NCBI RefSeq assembly: GCF_000092125.1 | Contig: NC_014212.1 | Location: 1,942,001 to 2,006,000, forward strand | Length of the DNA stretch: 64,000 nucleotides | From: Allomeiothermus silvanus DSM 9946 | Lineage (GTDB): Bacteria; Deinococcota; Deinococci; Deinococcales; Thermaceae | Direction of reading: 5' to 3' | Part shown: piece after piece, positions 1,247 through 58,435 of the stretch | Layout of the letters: the number at the start of each line of letters is the position of its first letter | How positions within the stretch are numbered: position 1 is the stretch's first letter | The notes under the pieces: model-generated | Told to the model about the DNA's origin: nothing | What the model saw: the letters and a program-made list of their open reading frames with translations, nothing else | Databases searched by the model: none | Translations under genes and position numbers: made by a program

Positions 1247-1274
1247 GACGTAAGGCGTACGACGTATGACGTGA
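1247..1274 (+). repeat. Heptanucleotide array, GACGTAN type, 4 units
   Basis: Four contiguous 7-bp units GACGTAA, GGCGTAC, GACGTAT, GACGTGA lie between the ATPase and permease genes. The same units recur at 40795-40844, 55121-55167 and 56637-56691. The array runs into the Shine-Dalgarno region of the permease. Confidence 0.7.
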
Positions 1275-10652: not shown

Positions 10653-10680
10653 GGTCGTACCTCCGAAAGCTTGGCGTATC

Positions 10681-10715
10681 GCCCATAGCTTATAGCTTGC
10701 CCAGTCGAGGGTCGA
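10681..10715. repeat. Degenerate heptanucleotide array between pyrH and frr
   Basis: Five 7-bp units GCCCATA, GCTTATA, GCTTGCC, CAGTCGA, GGGTCGA follow one another without a gap. Adjacent units share 4 or 5 positions. It is weaker than the other arrays but in the same kind of place, inside an operon between two genes. Confidence 0.45.
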
Positions 10716-10748
10716 GCGCTGTGTCCCTTGACTCCACCGTTTACGCTC

Positions 10749-11522
<774 letters not shown>

Positions 11523-11528
11523 GCACTG

Positions 11529-13038: not shown

Positions 13039-14182
13039 CAGACTTGACCGATATACAGCCCTTGGGGTAGAGAAAGATCATGACTCTGCGCCAGGCGCTA
13101 TCTCAGGTCCCGGACCCCCGGGCCCACAACCGGCGGTACCCCCTGTGGGGCCTTCTGGCCCTCATCCTGGTGGCCTTCCTGAGCCGCGTGGACTCCCTGC
13201 GCGGCGTGGAACGCTTTGCCCGCGCCAACCCCCACCTCTTGCCCCACCTGGGCCTGCGCAAGGCCCCAGGCCACACCGCCATCACCCTTCTCCTTCACCG
13301 CCTGGATCCTGAGAAGCTCCAGGCGGCCCTTGGCCAGGTCTTCCCCGAAGCCGACCTTGGGGAGGTCCTGGTGGTGGACGGGAAGCACCTGCGGGGAAGC
13401 GGCAAGGGGAAAAGCCCCCAGGTCAAGCTGGTGGAGGTCCTGGCCCTGCACCTCCATACCACCCTGGCCCAGGCCCGGGCGGAAGGGAGGGAGGAGAAGG
13501 CCTTCCTGGAGCTTCTGGACCGTTTGGAGGCGAGGGAGCTGGAGGGCAAGGTGGTGGTGGGGGACGCGGGGTACCTGTACCCTGAGGTGGCGGCCCGGGT
13601 GCGGAAAAAAGGGGGGACTATCTCTTGGTCCTGAAGGGGAACCAGGAGGAGCTTTTGTCCTGGGCCCTGGAGGTGTTCAAGGGGATGGCGGGAAGGCGTC
13701 TTCCCGGGGAGACGGAGGCGACCTGGAGTGGGGTGCGGGACGGGGAGGTGTGGACCTACCGGGTTTGGGCTTCCCCCTACCTGCCGGAAGAGGTGCGGGC
13801 CTTCCCTGGGGCCAGGCAGGTGGTGCGGCTTTGGCGGGAGGTGAGGCACAAGGGGACGGGGGAGGTGCGGCGGACGGTGAGCTACGCCCTCACCAGCCTG
13901 GGGCCGGAGGTAGCGGACGCAAAGCGGCTGGGGAGCCTGTTGCTTTCCCGATGGGAGGTGGAGAACCGATCGTTTTGGGTGCGGGACGTGTGCTTTGGGG
14001 AGGATGCCTGTCAGGTGCGGGGGGTGGGGGCGTGGGTGCTAGCGGTGCTGCGGGCCTTCCTGGTCTCCATGCTTCACCGAGAGGGGGTGAGGGAGAAGAA
14101 GGCAGCCCTAGAAATCTTCTTCTTCAACCCCCTCTCCGCCCTGCGCTTCCTGGGGCTCTATGCGGCATAGCGGTCAAGTCTG
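13039..14182 (+). mobile_element. ISAs1-family insertion sequence, copy 1
   Basis: 1144 bp, bounded by imperfect terminal inverted repeats beginning CAGACTTGACCG (12 perfect bases, then scattered matches to about 19) and flanked by a perfect 10-bp target duplication GAGGCAGGGT at 13029-13038 and 14183-14192. A second copy lies at 42583-43726 in the same orientation and looks identical, so both moved recently. The target is the short region between the divergent rpsB promoter and the lipid kinase gene. Confidence 0.95.
13080..14170 (+). CDS. ISAs1-family DDE transposase, two frames joined by a -1 shift
   Basis: The first part (13080-13634) carries the ISAs1 N-terminus VPDPRAHNRRYPLWGLL and the first catalytic Asp in VVDGKHLRGS, plus GDAGYLYPEV. 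It runs into a stop after KKGGTISWS. The second part (to 14170) lies in the -1 frame and carries LKGNQEELL and the catalytic Glu motif RWEVENRSFWVRDV with FGEDACQVR. The frames meet at A6G6 (13605-13616); adding one G, or slipping back one base, gives KKGGDYLLVLKGNQ, the expected family sequence, and a product of about 363 residues. Copy 2 has the same shift. Slippage-dependent expression is likely, as many IS elements do this, but two inherited defective copies cannot be excluded. Confidence 0.85.
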
Positions 14183-20174: not shown

Positions 20175-20269
20175 AATACTTCCCCCTGGCCCCAGTCTAT
20201 TCTGCTTTAGGGGTCCAGGGGGTAGATACGCTTCCTGTAGGGTGCTTGTGAAGTCGGCTGGATTCGTTT

Positions 20270-30256: not shown

Positions 30257-31396
30257 TGAACCCGGACAAACACATGTGAGACTCTAAGCTGGGATAAAAA
30301 GAGGGGAACCGACCAGGAAAGGAGGTTCCCCAGGTGCAGTTTACCACCGTTGGCCGAGAGATATGGAGAGGCGCTAGACAAGCACAGAGGCTGGCCGAGG
30401 CCAACGCAAGCGACCCAGAGGTCCAGGAACGTCTGCGCAAGCTCCGACTGGTCAAAGCCCTGCGTGAAAGTAAAAAGAGCTGGAAGGAGATCCAGGACCT
30501 GGTCGGGATCAGCCGGGCCACCTACCACCGCTGGCAAAAAGCCCTAAAAGAAAAGGGCCTGGCTGGACTCAAACCCCGCTCCCGCCGCCCTAAGCACCTG
30601 CGCACAAAGGTCCACTGGACCCCAGGGCTGCTCATTAGAATAGAAACTCTCCGCAAGGAAAACCCCACCTGGGGACGCTGGTCCATCTGGCTTACCCTCC
30701 GCAAGGAGGGTTTCCAGATGAGCGAACGCACGGTGGGGCGCATCCTGGCCTACCTGGAGAAGCACCGACGTATCGAGAGCGTGGCCGGCTACCTGGCCCG
30801 GACTCAAAGAGGGAAGCTAAAGCGAAGGGTAAACCGGCCCTACGCCAAAAGGAAGCCCCGAGGATACGAGGCCAGGGCTCCTGGGGACCTGGTCCAGGTG
30901 GACACCCTCACCCTGACCTTAGGACCGGGAAGCATGGTCAAGCACTTCTCGGCGATTGACCTCCATAGCCGGTTTGTCCTGGCGGAGGTGCACAGCCGGG
31001 CCACGGCTAAGCTTTCTGAGGGGTTCTTGTCCTTGCTTCTGGCCAGGGCCCCTTTTCCCATCCGGGCCATCCAGGTGGATGGGGGCAGCGAGTTCATGGC
31101 CGAGTTTGAGGAGGCCTGCTGTGCTCTGGGGATTGCCTTGTTTGTGCTACCGCCGAGGAGTCCTAAACTCAATGGTCACGTGGAGCGGATGCAGCGGACC
31201 TTCAAGGAGGAGTTCTACACCCGGCCTTTGCCCACCCCGCTCAGCGAGCTGCAGGCAGAGCTGGATACCTACCTGGACTACTACAACCGCCGAAGGCCTC
31301 ACATGGCCCTGGGGGGTCTTGCTCCGCTGGAGTTTTTGGCTAAGATGCAAGAGGAGTCGGTTCCTCAAAGAGTCTCAAATGTGTTGACCGATTACA
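30257..31396 (+). mobile_element. IS481-family insertion sequence, copy A
   Basis: 1140 bp with TG...CA ends and imperfect inverted repeats of about 28 bp that share GAGACTCT and CACAT blocks. It matches copy B (43753-44892) throughout. Unlike copy B it has no target duplication: left flank ends GCCGGC, right flank begins TTCTTTT. That suggests a rearrangement after insertion. Confidence 0.9.
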
Positions 31397-31416
31397 TTCT
31401 TTTGATAAGCTGGTAG
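30334..31416 (+). CDS. IS481-family transposase, copy A
   Basis: 360 residues from the GTG at 30334, which follows GGAGGTTCCCCAG. N-terminal helix-turn-helix (SWKEIQDLVGISRATYHRWQKALK), then an rve integrase core with catalytic Asp in DLVQVDTLTL, Asp in IQVDGGSEFMAEF and Glu in LNGHVERMQRTFKEEFY, and the C-terminal YLDYYNRRRPHMALGGLAPLEFL, here only the landmark residues. The reading frame has no stop inside the element: the last seven residues and the stop come from flanking DNA, different from copy B. Confidence 0.9.
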   Translation: MQFTTVGREIWRGARQAQRLAEANASDPEVQERLRKLRLVKALRESKKSWKEIQDLVGISRATYHRWQKALKEKGLAGLKPRSRRPKHLRTKVHWTPGLLIRIETLRKENPTWGRWSIWLTLRKEGFQMSERTVGRILAYLEKHRRIESVAGYLARTQRGKLKRRVNRPYAKRKPRGYEARAPGDLVQVDTLTLTLGPGSMVKHFSAIDLHSRFVLAEVHSRATAKLSEGFLSLLLARAPFPIRAIQVDGGSEFMAEFEEACCALGIALFVLPPRSPKLNGHVERMQRTFKEEFYTRPLPTPLSELQAELDTYLDYYNRRRPHMALGGLAPLEFLAKMQEESVPQRVSNVLTDYILLISW

Positions 31417-31566
31417 ATATCGCGTTACCGGGACATCTATCTCTAAGTGCCGGTCGAACCGGGGCGGTACGCTATGTCGTGGTGCGGTCTAGCAGGTATC
31501 TGGCTCGAGCCGTGCCGTGACCCGGCGAGCCAGCGGCGAACAAATCCAGCGTCTCGAGGAGGACGA

Positions 31567-32085
31567 ATGCGGCAGGGTTGGTCCAGGCTATCGCAGTGGC
31601 TCAGGCGCGGGGGCATCGTCGTGGTGGCCGCGGGGATGATGGGCGTCTTGGGCGGGGCCGGGCTGTACACCGCCCAGCACGCCGAAGCCCTCTCCTACCT
31701 CTCCAACGACCCCAAAGCTTGCGCCAACTGCCACATCATGCGCGAGGTCTACGACGGCTGGCAGAAGGCGAGCCACCACCACGTGGCGGTGTGCGTGGAC
31801 TGCCACCTGCCCCACGACTTCATCGGCAAGTACCTCACCAAGGTCGAGCACGGGTGGAACCACTCGAGGGCCTTCACCATGCAGGACTTCCACGAGCCCA
31901 TCCAGATCGGGCGGCGCAGCGCGGCGGTGGTGGAGCACAACTGCGTGCAGTGCCACCAGGGGCTCATCGGCGGGGTCTTACAGGCCCAGACCGCTTTTCA
32001 GGACGCCCATGCCGGCTTCCGGTCGGCGGGCGACGGCTCATTCGGCTGCGTGCACTGCCACCGGGGCGTGGGGCACGGCGAGTAA
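31567..32085 (+). CDS. nrfH: Cytochrome c nitrite reductase small subunit
   Basis: 172 residues. An N-terminal membrane anchor (residues 14-36) is followed by four CxxCH haem-binding motifs: CANCH, CVDCH, CVQCH and CVHCH, as in NrfH, the NapC/NirT-family quinol dehydrogenase that passes electrons from menaquinol to NrfA. GAGGAGG precedes the ATG at 31567 at good distance. It starts 170 bp after IS481 copy A and is followed 12 bp later by nrfA. Menaquinone as donor fits mqnC in this window. Confidence 0.9.
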   Translation: MRQGWSRLSQWLRRGGIVVVAAGMMGVLGGAGLYTAQHAEALSYLSNDPKACANCHIMREVYDGWQKASHHHVAVCVDCHLPHDFIGKYLTKVEHGWNHSRAFTMQDFHEPIQIGRRSAAVVEHNCVQCHQGLIGGVLQAQTAFQDAHAGFRSAGDGSFGCVHCHRGVGHGE

Positions 32086-32097
32086 CCGGGGGAAATT

Positions 32098-33528
32098 ATG
32101 GCGAGACGATGGATCTGGGTCAGCGCAGTGGTCGCGGTTTTTGCCCTGCTGGGCACGATCGGGATATTGGTGCTTCTGAACAACATCAACACCCGCAAGG
32201 CTGAAGCCCGCGAGACGGTGTTCCGCGTGGCCGACATCACCGAGGACACCACCGACCCCGAGGTCTGGGGCAAGAACTTCCCCCTGCAGTACGACTCCTA
32301 CAAGCGCACCGTGGACACCGTGCGCACGCGCTACGGCGGTTCGGAGGCCATCCAGCGGCTCGACCAGGACCCCCGGCTGCGGGTCCTGTGGAACGGCTAC
32401 CCCTTCGCGGTGGACTTCCGCGAGGACCGGGGCCACGCCTACATGCTCGTCGACCAGCGCGAGACCGAGCGGGTCAAGCAGTTCAAGCAGCCCGGCGCCT
32501 GCCTCAACTGCCACGCCAGCGTGGTCACCGCCTTCCGCGAGGCGGGGGTGAAGGCGGGCATCCCCAAAGACGACGCGCACTTCATGGAGGCCATCTTCAA
32601 GGGCTTCGAGGAGATCAACAAGATGCCCTACGCCGAGGCCACCCAGCTCGTCGAGCACCCGGTGAGCTGCATCGACTGCCACGACCCCAAGACCATGTCC
32701 ATCCGCGTGACCCGCCCGGCCTTCATCAACGGCATCCGGGCGCTGGCGAAGTCCGACGACCCCGTGCCCCACCTGCCCAGCCTCGAGCGCTGGCGCCAGG
32801 GCGACCGCAAGAAGGAGTACGACCCCAACACCGACGCCACGCGCCAGGAGATGCGCTCGATGGTCTGCGGGCAGTGCCACGTGGAGTACCATTTCGCCCC
32901 GCCCGACAAGACCCTCACCTTCCCCTGGCACAACGGGCTCAAGGTCGAGCAGATCGAGCAGCACTACAAGGACGTGAACTGGAAGGACTGGACCCACAAG
33001 GACTCCGGCGCCGACGTGCTCAAGGCCCAGCACCCCGAGTTCGAGATGTGGTCGCAGGGCATCCACGCGCGCTCGGGCGTGGCCTGCGCCGACTGCCACA
33101 TGCCCTACCAGCGGGTAGGCGCGGTCAAGGTCTCCAACCACCACGTGCGCAGCCCCATGCTGAACGTGGCCCAGGCCTGCCAGACCTGCCACAACTACCC
33201 CGAGGAAGAGATCAAGGCCCGCGTCGAGACCATCCAGGGCCGCACCAAGAAGCTCATGGACTCCGCGGAGGACGCGGTGGTGGACCTGATCCGGGCCATC
33301 CAGGCCGCGCAGGCTGCCGGGGCCTCGGATGAAGCGCTGAAAAAGGCCCGCGAGCTCCAGCGCTCGGCCCAGTGGCGCACCGACTACGTCAACGCCGAGA
33401 ACTCGCTGGGCTTCCACGCGCCGCAGGAGGCCGCCCGCATCCTGGGCGAGGCCATCGACTTCGCGCGGCAGGGGCAGCTCGAGGCCGTCAAAGCTCAGCA
33501 GGCCGCGAAACCTGCCACCCAGCGCTAA
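32098..33528 (+). CDS. nrfA: Cytochrome c nitrite reductase (ammonia-forming), catalytic subunit
   Basis: 476 residues. It reduces nitrite to ammonia with six electrons outside the cytoplasmic membrane. After a membrane anchor or signal segment, five haem motifs are seen at residues 135 (CLNCH), 191 (CIDCH), 257 (CGQCH, followed by VEYHF as is typical of NrfA), 330 (CADCH) and 361 (CQTCH). In E. coli the first haem, the catalytic one, has CxxCK; here it is CxxCH, a variant known in some NrfA lineages. The start is ATG at 32098 with GGGGG just upstream. Expressed with nrfH. Confidence 0.92.
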   Translation: MARRWIWVSAVVAVFALLGTIGILVLLNNINTRKAEARETVFRVADITEDTTDPEVWGKNFPLQYDSYKRTVDTVRTRYGGSEAIQRLDQDPRLRVLWNGYPFAVDFREDRGHAYMLVDQRETERVKQFKQPGACLNCHASVVTAFREAGVKAGIPKDDAHFMEAIFKGFEEINKMPYAEATQLVEHPVSCIDCHDPKTMSIRVTRPAFINGIRALAKSDDPVPHLPSLERWRQGDRKKEYDPNTDATRQEMRSMVCGQCHVEYHFAPPDKTLTFPWHNGLKVEQIEQHYKDVNWKDWTHKDSGADVLKAQHPEFEMWSQGIHARSGVACADCHMPYQRVGAVKVSNHHVRSPMLNVAQACQTCHNYPEEEIKARVETIQGRTKKLMDSAEDAVVDLIRAIQAAQAAGASDEALKKARELQRSAQWRTDYVNAENSLGFHAPQEAARILGEAIDFARQGQLEAVKAQQAAKPATQR

Positions 33529-33540
33529 ATATCCCACCCT

Positions 33541-33568
33541 GAAGGGGCGCACGGTGGTGCGCCCCTTC
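33541..33568 (+). terminator. Strong hairpin after nrfA
   Basis: A perfect 12-bp stem GAAGGGGCGCAC/GTGCGCCCCTTC with a GGTG loop begins 12 bp after the nrfA stop. No T-run follows. Confidence 0.7.
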
Positions 33569-33848
33569 GCGCTGGTGGGGATTATTGGGTGAATGACGTT
33601 GGCGGGGACCGCTCCGCCGTCAGGGGCCGGAGGGGGAGGCCATTCCACGTGGCGAGGGCATCGCGGTACGCGATCCGGCATACGCCGGAAACCTGCTCCC
33701 CCTGGGCTCCCCCGACACCCCGCCCACCCCCTCCCGCGTGAGCCGCACACCCCGGCCGGGGACGGGCCCGCAGGTCGAGCGGGTGTCCCCTGGGGAGTGG
33801 GGCTGTAGTTGGCTTACAGGCCGGGCACAACCCAAGTGGATGATTTTT
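33569..33848. other. Non-coding, very GC-rich stretch with two adjacent hairpins
   Basis: I see no convincing gene here. Two perfect small hairpins stand side by side: ATCGCG/CGCGAT with a 3-nt loop (33660-33674) and CCGGC/GCCGG with a 4-nt loop (33675-33688). They could belong to a small structured RNA or a degraded repeat. Confidence 0.4.
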
Positions 33849-33918
33849 AGCTATTGGCTATCGGCTATCAGCTATCAGCTATGGGCTATCGACCATCGAC
33901 CATCGACCATCGACCATC
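33849..33918. repeat. Ten-unit heptanucleotide array
   Basis: 70 bp of exact 7-bp periodicity: AGCTATT, GGCTATC twice, AGCTATC, AGCTATG, GGCTATC, then GACCATC four times. It lies between nrfA and the ackA remnant. A related three-unit array on the complementary strand is at 63151-63171. Confidence 0.9.
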
Positions 33919-33982
33919 AGCGTTCTACGTCCAACTCCAGAAAGGGAATCTTGTCCTCCCCCTGCCGTTAGGATGGTCGGTG

Positions 33983-34993
<1,011 letters not shown>

Positions 34994-40771: not shown

Positions 40772-40794
40772 CTGAACCTCCGTTGAGGTCACCC

Positions 40795-40843
40795 GTCGTA
40801 CGCCGAAGGTTTTTTCGACGTAGGACGTAAGACGTGCGACGTA

Positions 40844-42582: not shown

Positions 42583-43726
42583 CAGACTTGACCGATATAC
42601 AGCCCTTGGGGTAGAGAAAGATCATGACTCTGCGCCAGGCGCTATCTCAGGTCCCGGACCCCCGGGCCCACAACCGGCGGTACCCCCTGTGGGGCCTTCT
42701 GGCCCTCATCCTGGTGGCCTTCCTGAGCCGCGTGGACTCCCTGCGCGGCGTGGAACGCTTTGCCCGCGCCAACCCCCACCTCTTGCCCCACCTGGGCCTG
42801 CGCAAGGCCCCAGGCCACACCGCCATCACCCTTCTCCTTCACCGCCTGGATCCTGAGAAGCTCCAGGCGGCCCTTGGCCAGGTCTTCCCCGAAGCCGACC
42901 TTGGGGAGGTCCTGGTGGTGGACGGGAAGCACCTGCGGGGAAGCGGCAAGGGGAAAAGCCCCCAGGTCAAGCTGGTGGAGGTCCTGGCCCTGCACCTCCA
43001 TACCACCCTGGCCCAGGCCCGGGCGGAAGGGAGGGAGGAGAAGGCCTTCCTGGAGCTTCTGGACCGTTTGGAGGCGAGGGAGCTGGAGGGCAAGGTGGTG
43101 GTGGGGGACGCGGGGTACCTGTACCCTGAGGTGGCGGCCCGGGTGCGGAAAAAAGGGGGGACTATCTCTTGGTCCTGAAGGGGAACCAGGAGGAGCTTTT
43201 GTCCTGGGCCCTGGAGGTGTTCAAGGGGATGGCGGGAAGGCGTCTTCCCGGGGAGACGGAGGCGACCTGGAGTGGGGTGCGGGACGGGGAGGTGTGGACC
43301 TACCGGGTTTGGGCTTCCCCCTACCTGCCGGAAGAGGTGCGGGCCTTCCCTGGGGCCAGGCAGGTGGTGCGGCTTTGGCGGGAGGTGAGGCACAAGGGGA
43401 CGGGGGAGGTGCGGCGGACGGTGAGCTACGCCCTCACCAGCCTGGGGCCGGAGGTAGCGGACGCAAAGCGGCTGGGGAGCCTGTTGCTTTCCCGATGGGA
43501 GGTGGAGAACCGATCGTTTTGGGTGCGGGACGTGTGCTTTGGGGAGGATGCCTGTCAGGTGCGGGGGGTGGGGGCGTGGGTGCTAGCGGTGCTGCGGGCC
43601 TTCCTGGTCTCCATGCTTCACCGAGAGGGGGTGAGGGAGAAGAAGGCAGCCCTAGAAATCTTCTTCTTCAACCCCCTCTCCGCCCTGCGCTTCCTGGGGC
43701 TCTATGCGGCATAGCGGTCAAGTCTG
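42583..43726 (+). mobile_element. ISAs1-family insertion sequence, copy 2
   Basis: 1144 bp, same ends and same orientation as copy 1 at 13039-14182, flanked by a 9-bp target duplication GGTTTGAAG (42574-42582 and 43727-43735). Placed just upstream of the metY promoter with its left end facing that promoter, the same geometry as copy 1 at rpsB. Confidence 0.95.
42624..43714 (+). CDS. ISAs1-family DDE transposase, copy 2, -1 shift
   Basis: Same two-frame arrangement as at 13080-14170. The first frame ends at 43178 after KKGGTISWS and the second carries LKGNQ to LGLYAA. The A6G6 run is kept unchanged. Translated parts show no difference from copy 1, so the shift existed before the copies separated, which fits a functional slippage site better than independent decay. 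Confidence 0.85.
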
Positions 43727-43752: not shown

Positions 43753-44892
43753 TGAACCCGGACAAACACATGTGAGACTCTAAGCTGGGATAAAAAGAGG
43801 GGAACCGACCAGGAAAGGAGGTTCCCCAGGTGCAGTTTACCACCGTTGGCCGAGAGATATGGAGAGGCGCTAGACAAGCACAGAGGCTGGCCGAGGCCAA
43901 CGCAAGCGACCCAGAGGTCCAGGAACGTCTGCGCAAGCTCCGACTGGTCAAAGCCCTGCGTGAAAGTAAAAAGAGCTGGAAGGAGATCCAGGACCTGGTC
44001 GGGATCAGCCGGGCCACCTACCACCGCTGGCAAAAAGCCCTAAAAGAAAAGGGCCTGGCTGGACTCAAACCCCGCTCCCGCCGCCCTAAGCACCTGCGCA
44101 CAAAGGTCCACTGGACCCCAGGGCTGCTCATTAGAATAGAAACTCTCCGCAAGGAAAACCCCACCTGGGGACGCTGGTCCATCTGGCTTACCCTCCGCAA
44201 GGAGGGTTTCCAGATGAGCGAACGCACGGTGGGGCGCATCCTGGCCTACCTGGAGAAGCACCGACGTATCGAGAGCGTGGCCGGCTACCTGGCCCGGACT
44301 CAAAGAGGGAAGCTAAAGCGAAGGGTAAACCGGCCCTACGCCAAAAGGAAGCCCCGAGGATACGAGGCCAGGGCTCCTGGGGACCTGGTCCAGGTGGACA
44401 CCCTCACCCTGACCTTAGGACCGGGAAGCATGGTCAAGCACTTCTCGGCGATTGACCTCCATAGCCGGTTTGTCCTGGCGGAGGTGCACAGCCGGGCCAC
44501 GGCTAAGCTTTCTGAGGGGTTCTTGTCCTTGCTTCTGGCCAGGGCCCCTTTTCCCATCCGGGCCATCCAGGTGGATGGGGGCAGCGAGTTCATGGCCGAG
44601 TTTGAGGAGGCCTGCTGTGCTCTGGGGATTGCCTTGTTTGTGCTACCGCCGAGGAGTCCTAAACTCAATGGTCACGTGGAGCGGATGCAGCGGACCTTCA
44701 AGGAGGAGTTCTACACCCGGCCTTTGCCCACCCCGCTCAGCGAGCTGCAGGCAGAGCTGGATACCTACCTGGACTACTACAACCGCCGAAGGCCTCACAT
44801 GGCCCTGGGGGGTCTTGCTCCGCTGGAGTTTTTGGCTAAGATGCAAGAGGAGTCGGTTCCTCAAAGAGTCTCAAATGTGTTGACCGATTACA
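43753..44892 (+). mobile_element. IS481-family insertion sequence, copy B
   Basis: 1140 bp, matching copy A, flanked by a 5-bp target duplication GAGGG (43748-43752 and 44893-44897). It inserted 26 bp beyond ISAs1-like copy 2, so the two elements stand in tandem. Its right end is one target duplication away from a TTGACA at 44898-44903. Confidence 0.93.
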
Positions 44893-44912
44893 GAGGGTTG
44901 ACATTTCTCTGA
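43830..44912 (+). CDS. IS481-family transposase, copy B
   Basis: 360 residues, the same protein as at 30334 up to the last residues of the element (SNVLTDY). As in copy A the frame leaves the element without a stop; here flanking DNA adds RGLTFL before a TGA. The helix-turn-helix and DDE residues are intact, so it is probably active. Confidence 0.9.
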   Translation: MQFTTVGREIWRGARQAQRLAEANASDPEVQERLRKLRLVKALRESKKSWKEIQDLVGISRATYHRWQKALKEKGLAGLKPRSRRPKHLRTKVHWTPGLLIRIETLRKENPTWGRWSIWLTLRKEGFQMSERTVGRILAYLEKHRRIESVAGYLARTQRGKLKRRVNRPYAKRKPRGYEARAPGDLVQVDTLTLTLGPGSMVKHFSAIDLHSRFVLAEVHSRATAKLSEGFLSLLLARAPFPIRAIQVDGGSEFMAEFEEACCALGIALFVLPPRSPKLNGHVERMQRTFKEEFYTRPLPTPLSELQAELDTYLDYYNRRRPHMALGGLAPLEFLAKMQEESVPQRVSNVLTDYRGLTFL

Positions 44913-52770: not shown

Positions 52771-52780
52771 AGAGAATATC

Positions 52781-52815
52781 GTCTAGGGTCTACGGGTAAG
52801 GGTCAAGGGCTGCGG
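52781..52815. repeat. Heptanucleotide array, GTCTAGG type
   Basis: Five contiguous units GTCTAGG, GTCTACG, GGTAAGG, GTCAAGG, GCTGCGG in the gap between znuA and prmA. Units share the frame and 4-6 positions with each other. Confidence 0.65.
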
Positions 52816-52827
52816 CGGATCCTGAGC

Positions 52828-55110: not shown

Positions 55111-55120
55111 AGCTGAGGAG

Positions 55121-55167
55121 GTCGTACATCGAACGCTACGTCGTACGCCGTAAGACGTAGGTCTATT
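55121..55167. repeat. Heptanucleotide array between gcvPB and the kinase gene
   Basis: GTCGTAC, ATCGAAC, a 5-nt unit GCTAC, then GTCGTAC, GCCGTAA, GACGTAG, GTCTATT. Units match those at 1247, 40795 and 56637. The array runs to the gcvPB stop codon. Confidence 0.85.
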
Positions 55168-56617: not shown

Positions 56618-56636
56618 TCTTCACACCCCAAAAAAG

Positions 56637-56691
56637 GTCGTATGTCATACGTCCTAGGGGATACGCCAGATGCTTTTGACGTACGACATTC
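56637..56691. repeat. Heptanucleotide array between gcvPA and gcvPB
   Basis: GTCGTAT, GTCATAC, GTCCTAG, GGGATAC, GCCAGAT, a 6-nt unit GCTTTT, GACGTAC, GACATTC. The first and last units are near complements, so the array may form a stem within the operon mRNA. Confidence 0.85.
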
Positions 56692-57991: not shown

Positions 57992-58051
57992 AGAAGATCC
58001 CGTCGACAGCTTATAAGGGATAGCTCAGGGTGAAAGTCGTCTAAACTATAG

Positions 58052-58435
58052 CTACTGGCTCTGGGCAAAGGCCTGATAGGCCGCTGCGTCCATCAGGGCC
58101 TCGAGGTCGGCGGGGTTAGCGGGGCGCAGTTTGAAGATCCAGCCATCTTGGTAAGGACTTTGGTTGAGGAGTTCCGGGGCTTCCTCGAGCGCTGGGTTTA
58201 CCTCCACTACCTCTCCGGCAACGGGAGCGTAGATGTCGGAAGCGGTCTTTACTGACTCGACGGCGGCCACTGCCTCACCCGCTTGGTATTTTTTGCCCGG
58301 CACCGGTAGCTCCACAAACACCACATCGCCTAGCGCGTCTTGGGCGTAATCGGTGATCCCCACCACGGCTAGCCCGTCCTCGAGCCGCACCCACTCGTGA
58401 GACTTGGTGTAACGCAGATCGCTTGGATAGTTCAT
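58052..58435 (-). CDS. gcvH: Glycine cleavage system H protein
   Basis: 127 residues, the lipoyl carrier that shuttles the aminomethyl group between P, T and L proteins. The lipoylated Lys is in AAVESVKTASDIYAPVAG, in the expected surface turn. N-terminal LRYTKSHEWVRLEDG is the H-protein start. Lies 17 bp after gcvT. Confidence 0.96.
   Translation of the reverse strand: MNYPSDLRYTKSHEWVRLEDGLAVVGITDYAQDALGDVVFVELPVPGKKYQAGEAVAAVESVKTASDIYAPVAGEVVEVNPALEEAPELLNQSPYQDGWIFKLRPANPADLEALMDAAAYQAFAQSQ

Follow-up and report, generated by a model that had tools for sequence, protein, structure and literature searches.

Within the same phylum, the small noncoding repeats (SNRs) of Deinococcus radiodurans have been described as 295 copies of at least 9 types with an unusual mosaic structure (PMC1978522). 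Like the elements reported here, in which cores and blocks are exchangeable at many loci, they are mosaics occurring in hundreds of intergenic copies, but going by the description that we found, heptad phasing does not belong to them. In 150 kb of the D. radiodurans megaplasmid MP1 we have found no period-7 excess (2 intergenic runs, against 0–2 for other periods), and a heptad link to D. radiodurans was dropped for this reason.

Tandem heptamers are known from more distant bacteria. The STRRs of the cyanobacteria Calothrix and Nostoc and the TAACTGA repeats of Beggiatoaceae are also intergenic and present at many loci (PMC4692102, PMC4679880), but they are described as having one unit per array, while the present elements consist of ordered different units flanking hairpin cores, and the units are unrelated. 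The heptamers GGGAATC in Xanthomonas and GGGGAYT in Nostoc are likewise intergenic, and related species have them in matching positions but with differing array lengths (PMC4692102); they differ in being G-quadruplex-forming and in belonging to no mosaic element. Dispersed families of tandem heptamers exist in Geobacter as well (GGGACCG x4 in 49 copies, and MTYCTGA x5; PMC2700814), although there the number of one unit is fixed and the elements have been proposed as regulator or RNA sites.

The REP, BIME and MITE repeats are also extragenic, palindromic and of high copy number. In contrast to them, the present elements were not found linked to a RAYT gene, and neither fixed ends nor a target duplication was found for them; REPs, in turn, have no heptad arms. 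A tool survey has counted 482 REP-like sequences in Calidithermus roseus (PMC12306157); this count is all that the survey gives for C. roseus, and we have found no published description of the present elements in Calidithermus or Allomeiothermus in the open literature. The arms also vary by whole units between close relatives, as minisatellites (VNTRs) do. In this sense the elements work like a minisatellite carried by an SNR- or REP-like repeat.

The window analysed here is a stretch of 64,000 nucleotides (C1:1942001-2006000) of Allomeiothermus silvanus DSM 9946, formerly Meiothermus silvanus; the genome of Meiothermus silvanus VI-R2 consists of 3,249,394 + 347,854 + 124,421 bp (PMC3035272). 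Statistics for A. silvanus were obtained from sampled stretches, 864 kb for the period scan and later ~1.1 Mb including extra loci. In the 864 kb, 17 intergenic runs of period 7 were observed against 0–10 for the other periods from 4 to 13, and with a stricter cut-off 10 against 0–1, with none after shuffling the whole sample; coding DNA of the same sample shows the usual periods of 6, 9 and 12. Moreover, 27 of the 36 A. silvanus intergenic arrays have a unit from the 23 heptad classes of C. chliarophilus, and 42% of array units belong to this 23-class set, against 2.6% of background intergenic heptads. An earlier note on this DNA had suggested a real, genome-wide family with recurring units, and this is confirmed both by the recurrence of the units and by the autocorrelation, since intergenic period 7 exceeds all other periods and the shuffled sequence. 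Nine of the ten intervals that it had listed as 7-phased are so (p ≤ 0.003, dinucleotide shuffle of each interval), but 58008-58056 is not (match fraction 0.31, p = 0.24). In a strict scan of the window, only 11496-11522, 33847-33918 and 40817-40842 stand out, the rest being weak arrays of 3–5 degraded units.

The genomes compared, one per species, include C. chliarophilus DSM 9957 (G006), C. roseus NBRC 110900 (G002) and an Allomeiothermus with ~87% DNA identity to A. silvanus (G001). G001 and G002 are draft assemblies, and G006 contains runs of N at repeats. Gene models are simple codon-based calls and are imperfect; for instance, the acetate kinase ORF runs upstream past its likely start, at the 33847 array. 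The features in the window are collected in Table 1.

Table 1. Heptad features in the window, with the evidence for each and its comparison with related genomes.
Feature	Coordinates	Strand	Evidence	Comparison
GACGTAN block before ABC permease gene	1247..1274	+	shuffle p = 0.0005	23 bp missing in G001
pyrH-frr gap, weak GCTTATA/GCCCATA heptads at 10681-10715	10653..10748	-	shuffle p = 0.001	96 bp, against 79 bp in G001
tsf-pyrH gap, GGGTCGAGGGTCAAGCG type heptads, strong hairpin	11454..11528	-	period-7 score 12.5-15; fold z -4.0	17 bp longer than G001
Tract common with C. chliarophilus (98.3-99.4% identity): nrfH, nrfA, element, 5' part of ackA	31396..34878	+	gene names from NCBIfam	
Core B, GC-rich multi-hairpin non-coding module, 3' end CACAACCCAAGTGGATGATTT	33568..33846	+	copy counts; heptads always 3'	
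Right heptad arm: GCTATC block, GACCATC block, AGCGTTC TACGTCC remnants	33847..33935	+	period-7 score 45-50	one heptad longer than the 98-99% identical C. chliarophilus copy
metY-metX gap, inverted GTCGTAC / GACGTAN heptads, hairpin	40793..40843	-	fold z -2.3 to -2.6	extra 14 bp (two heptads) relative to G001
GTCTAGG block, replacing the hairpin core of other copies	52771..52827	-	shuffle p = 0.0005	gap exceeds that of G001 by 30 bp; block also in C. roseus element GTCGAGGGTCTAGGGCCGAGGGCCAAGG
Gap after gcvPB, TACGTCG / CGTAAGACGTAGG heptads	55111..55162	-	shuffle p = 0.003	52 bp, against 14 bp in G001
gcvPA-gcvPB gap, inverted GTCNTAN / GACGTACGAC heptads	56618..56689	-	alignment with G001	72 bp, against 55 bp in G001
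Short GCTATCG block (reverse complement), overlapping stop codon	63151..63171	-	shuffle p = 0.0005	conserved in G001

The array at 33849-33918, previously described as ten exact 7-bp units, does consist of ten such units, but these differ from one another. They belong to two types and contain substitutions, i.e., AGCTATT GGCTATC GGCTATC AGCTATC AGCTATG GGCTATC followed by four GACCATC units, with a lag-7 match of 87% and a TRF score of at most 63. The array is not free-standing; it is the right arm, or tail, of a modular, structured non-coding element of ~370 bp. The core of this copy, core B, is ~280 bp long, contains several hairpin modules and leads into the same right arm as core A described below. 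Core B has 2 copies in A. silvanus, 63 matching pieces in C. chliarophilus and 6 in C. roseus, and the heptads always stand directly after its 3' end; searching 17 other relatives gave zero or trivial matches.

In C. chliarophilus (stretches L176, L170 and L182), copies of core B follow each other in tandem, separated by heptads and runs of N, and inside the core a hairpin module is either present or missing as a whole unit. Folding 16 copies together by alifold gave 76 pairs, only 6 of which show two-sided change, and the single-sequence folding energy is unremarkable (z of -1.0 and 0.0). On these grounds we make no claim that core B is a conserved RNA. The structured 3' end also suggested a TnpB/IscB guide RNA, which is no more than a guess and found no support in Rfam: at the gathering threshold, Rfam recovered only tRNA and SAM riboswitch in the window and seven C. 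chliarophilus stretches, and the elements were unmatched.

The complete architecture can be read from C. chliarophilus, where the arrays are long and ordered. In a typical copy the left arm is built from AGCCGTC/AGCTATC and GGCTCGTGG units. It is followed by core A with two hairpins, CCCTCCCCGC..GCGGGGAGGG and CCCCCCTTGCTAAGGGGGG, and then TGACAAG. The right arm starts with GCGTCTT/GCGTTTT/GCGTTCG units and continues either with GCTATCR and ACYATCG or with GCGTACG and ACGTACG units. This order is nearly fixed. Among up to 59 C. chliarophilus elements, the GCGTYTK block precedes GCTATCR in 28/28, ACGTACG in 16/16 and ACYATCG in 16/16 cases, and the left CAGCYRT arm precedes GGCTCGTGG in 31 of 32. 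As a third alternative to the cores, C. roseus has at one site a GTCGAGG GTCTAGG GCCGAGG run in the place taken by hairpins in C. chliarophilus. More generally, at orthologous sites of these two species arrays are present in both, with different arms and cores, and such common sites are old. The unit types distinguished earlier (GACGTAN, RGCTATC/GACCATC and GTCTAGG) are indeed present in the window; they are not three families, however, but blocks of one composite element with hairpin cores, because the same blocks occur in the ordered elements of C. chliarophilus and C. roseus.

The range of the elements among genomes is narrow. Per 100 kb of intergenic DNA, C. chliarophilus has 133 period-7 runs against 12 in A. 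silvanus, i.e., about ten times as many, while none were observed in the Meiothermus sample and few in the Thermus-like samples. The core A motif was found 219 times in C. chliarophilus, 9 times in C. roseus, 3 times in A. silvanus and once in G001, with no match in 17 other relatives and none for the reversed-pattern control. When a 28-nt heptad pattern was searched in 111 Deinococcota genomes, the two Calidithermus and two Allomeiothermus genomes gave 811, 59, 44 and 30 matches; two further genomes had about as many matches as the reversed control gave (5 vs 3 and 3 vs 6), and the other 105 gave zero. A longer exact pattern, searched against GTDB genomes with A. silvanus left out by design, matched only the two Calidithermus species. 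These counts suggest an element family specific to Allomeiothermus and Calidithermus.

Further information comes from two tracts that A. silvanus and C. chliarophilus have nearly in common, namely the one containing the 33849 array (Table 1) and C1:680001-687129 (L012:1-7129), which matches at 97–99.7%. Together they give 10,581 aligned bp with 54 substitutions (0.5%; per tract 0.4–0.8%). Typical proteins of the two species differ by ~15%, against 0.4–0.8% in these tracts. Judging from this sequence similarity, the tracts are best read as a recent transfer between the genera, in either direction, or as a shared import. Apart from this, two ORF pairs of the same length are repeated in the window (13080-14170 with 42624-43714, and 30334-31416 with 43830-44912; 184+181 aa and 360 aa). 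They are likely insertion-sequence copies, and one of them immediately adjoins the tract 31396-34878 on its left side.

Not counting runs of N, the two tracts have 8 scorable indels, and seven of these fall inside elements; the elements account for 7.6% of the sequence (binomial p = 1e-7). In the heptad arms the indels are 7, 14 and 7 bp, in core B they are 130, 3 and 23 bp, and the seventh, of 6 bp, is at the outer end of a left arm. Two further pairs of orthologous arrays show length differences of 42 bp (98.5% identity in the flanks) and 28 bp (89.8%), while in less similar orthologous pairs the length differences are not confined to multiples of 7. Whole heptads have thus been gained or lost between copies in near-identical DNA, and these steps give direct support to the slipped-strand option of the earlier note. 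Polymerase slippage would be the probable cause of such whole-unit changes, as has been proposed for heptamers elsewhere (reported in PMC4679880 and PMC4692102). Comparing the same gaps in relatives revealed the gain and loss of heptads, but not a clean appearance or disappearance of entire arrays: the presence/absence site within Allomeiothermus, near 20217-20256, is not clean, and most common sites look old. For the spacer between gcvPA and gcvPB, on the other hand, the alignments point to a gain in the Allomeiothermus lineage, because C. chliarophilus (G006) and three other relatives (G015, G003 and G008) have no spacer there but a 4-bp overlap of the two genes.

The draft Allomeiothermus genome G001 shows a lineage-specific burst. 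An ordered string of heptads, GCGTTTA GCGTCTG GCGTTTT GCGTATT GCGTA (33 nt), stands at 33 places, 24 of them exact, although the assembly may have homogenised copies. The same string is absent from A. silvanus, so the block order has been copied and not re-invented. It is joined to tandem hairpin modules with differing self-complementary stems (GGAGCTTGCTCC, GGGCGTAGCCC, GGCGGTACGCC and others), and a module of this type also occurs at a few places in A. silvanus. By eye, the left arms in G001 (ACGTCGTACGTCATACG) resemble the reverse complement of the right arms (CGTATGACGTACGACGT type), an inverted arrangement that C. chliarophilus copies do not have. One ~300-bp G001 element is missing at the matching place of the window near 20217-20256, where the flanks are too diverged for the target site to be read. 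The burst, together with the hundreds of copies in C. chliarophilus, directly supports the suggestion of a mobile small repeat in the sense of a dispersed one.

Some neighbouring features were observed alongside. On the A. silvanus plasmid C3 (L046:3979-5060), tandem repeats of ~42 bp, GTCCCGACAGGGGATCGTCCCCCGGGTGAAC, share their hairpin module with the G001 elements; the region is possibly coding. A palindromic repeat of ~160 bp with the ends ATACCNGATTCAAAAAGATA ... TATCTTTTTGAATCCGGTAT, separate from the heptads, is present at L088:8171-8301 and at about 40 or more places in A. silvanus; it adjoins a heptad arm in C. chliarophilus and is missing at the C. roseus site. This repeat looks like a MITE and offers an easy empty-site case. 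In G001 (L267-L296), A/T runs directly before CCCCCGCG or heptads are exactly six long in 12 of 12 cases and are probably assembly filler at repeats. Similar A6/T6 tracts stand beside arrays in the finished A. silvanus genome (40793, 56618 and 11454), and they are not enriched in A. silvanus gaps (p = 0.68).

Overall, we read the arrays as intact or eroded arms of mosaic non-coding repeats that are dispersed in Allomeiothermus and Calidithermus and specific to these two genera, with a probability of roughly 0.7 for this reading as a whole. A full copy comprises a left heptad arm, a hairpin-rich core, of which there are several interchangeable kinds, and a right heptad arm, in near-fixed block order. 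Arm length would change by replication slippage or unequal exchange between adjacent heptads, cores would be exchanged by recombination between copies within a genome, and copies would spread as a non-autonomous element or through duplication. In A. silvanus most copies would be old remnants, worn down to the short heptad runs of the operon gaps.

It could be asked whether each array has instead arisen by its own simple-sequence slippage in spacer DNA, with heptamers favoured and no common element. In most prokaryotes, units of 7 bp predominate among long simple repeats according to Mrazek 2007, as cited in PMC4679880 and PMC4692102, with slippage as the proposed cause, and the arms do change length in heptad steps. 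But independent slippage does not yield a fixed block order and common cores over hundreds of loci in two genera, or one ordered string at 33 places of G001, and heptad density tracks the clade, not GC or lifestyle, being near zero in the Meiothermus and Thermus samples. This explanation is contradicted for the long arrays and very unlikely as a general account. Since a heptad excess is in itself common in bacteria (PMC4692102, PMC4679880), some very short A. silvanus arrays may be independent slippage products, and for single 3-unit arrays this is possible. Another account is a functional intercistronic mRNA element, in which hairpins or protein-binding repeats after stop codons would tune how the mRNA is processed, how stable it is or how the following gene is translated. 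Many arrays do lie between coupled genes close to stop codons, as the earlier note had described for several. In short co-directional gaps of A. silvanus the array starts a median of 6 bp past the stop codon and leaves 18 bp up to the start codon, and inverted heptad arms span exactly from stop to start at 40793-40843, 56618-56689 and L023:4144-4202. Many short arrays in operon gaps of A. silvanus form such inverted heptad hairpins, folding is stronger in short co-directional gaps with arrays than in control gaps (median z -1.48 vs -0.45, p = 0.0018), and regulatory roles have been proposed for other heptamers (PMC4679880, PMC2700814). However, there is no up/down asymmetry within these gaps (Wilcoxon p = 0.91), so the arrays simply occupy the whole gap and have no preference for the stop side. 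Moreover, type A copies in C. chliarophilus favour convergent gaps (25/59) and have no co-directional bias (8 vs 14, p = 0.29), the neighbouring genes are mixed and housekeeping, and arm length and core vary freely between near-identical loci. The arrays thus lack the orientation and position bias expected of the mRNA processing or stability signals suggested before, and we regard this account as distinctly unlikely. Any cellular function is unproven; the better folding fits a structural consequence and leaves room for an mRNA role. The data require no gene-regulatory role, and if intercistronic hairpins do affect the mRNA, this would be a side effect or a use acquired later.

The elements might also be REP- or MITE-like, with a host transposase (Y1/RAYT or DDE) that actively moves them and recognises ends of which the heptads form part. 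Hairpin cores, extragenic position, many copies and the G001 burst with inverted heptad arms agree with this, and Y1 transposases exist in both genera. Among 17 Y1 loci in four genomes, however, only 2 have a heptad array within ~3 kb, for which reason Y1/RAYT mobilisation was rejected; no Y1 gene flanked by elements and no transposase linked to copies was found there, no target-site duplication has been established, and the element ends vary in sequence and length. Movement by a host transposase is thus rather unlikely. It is unlikely, too, that the elements are active non-autonomous ones of a new design, in which the heptad arms would themselves be the recognised ends, a recombinase or replication-linked copying would place them into gaps after stop codons, and cores would be swapped like cassettes between common arm sequences (GTGGTT...CAAGGCG). 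Should a mover be found, the elements would represent a new type of small mobile repeat.

Counts of heptamer repeats exist for many bacteria but have lacked an explanation, and here the repeats can be viewed as parts of a larger element of ordered blocks. The related genomes allow gain, loss and core exchange to be followed, and the arrays would be usable as VNTRs for strain typing. Since the tracts common to A. silvanus and C. chliarophilus are a direct record of the gain and loss of 7-bp units, the question of why the unit is 7 becomes testable, with the step of polymerase slippage, the pitch of a protein and the end of the element as candidate reasons.
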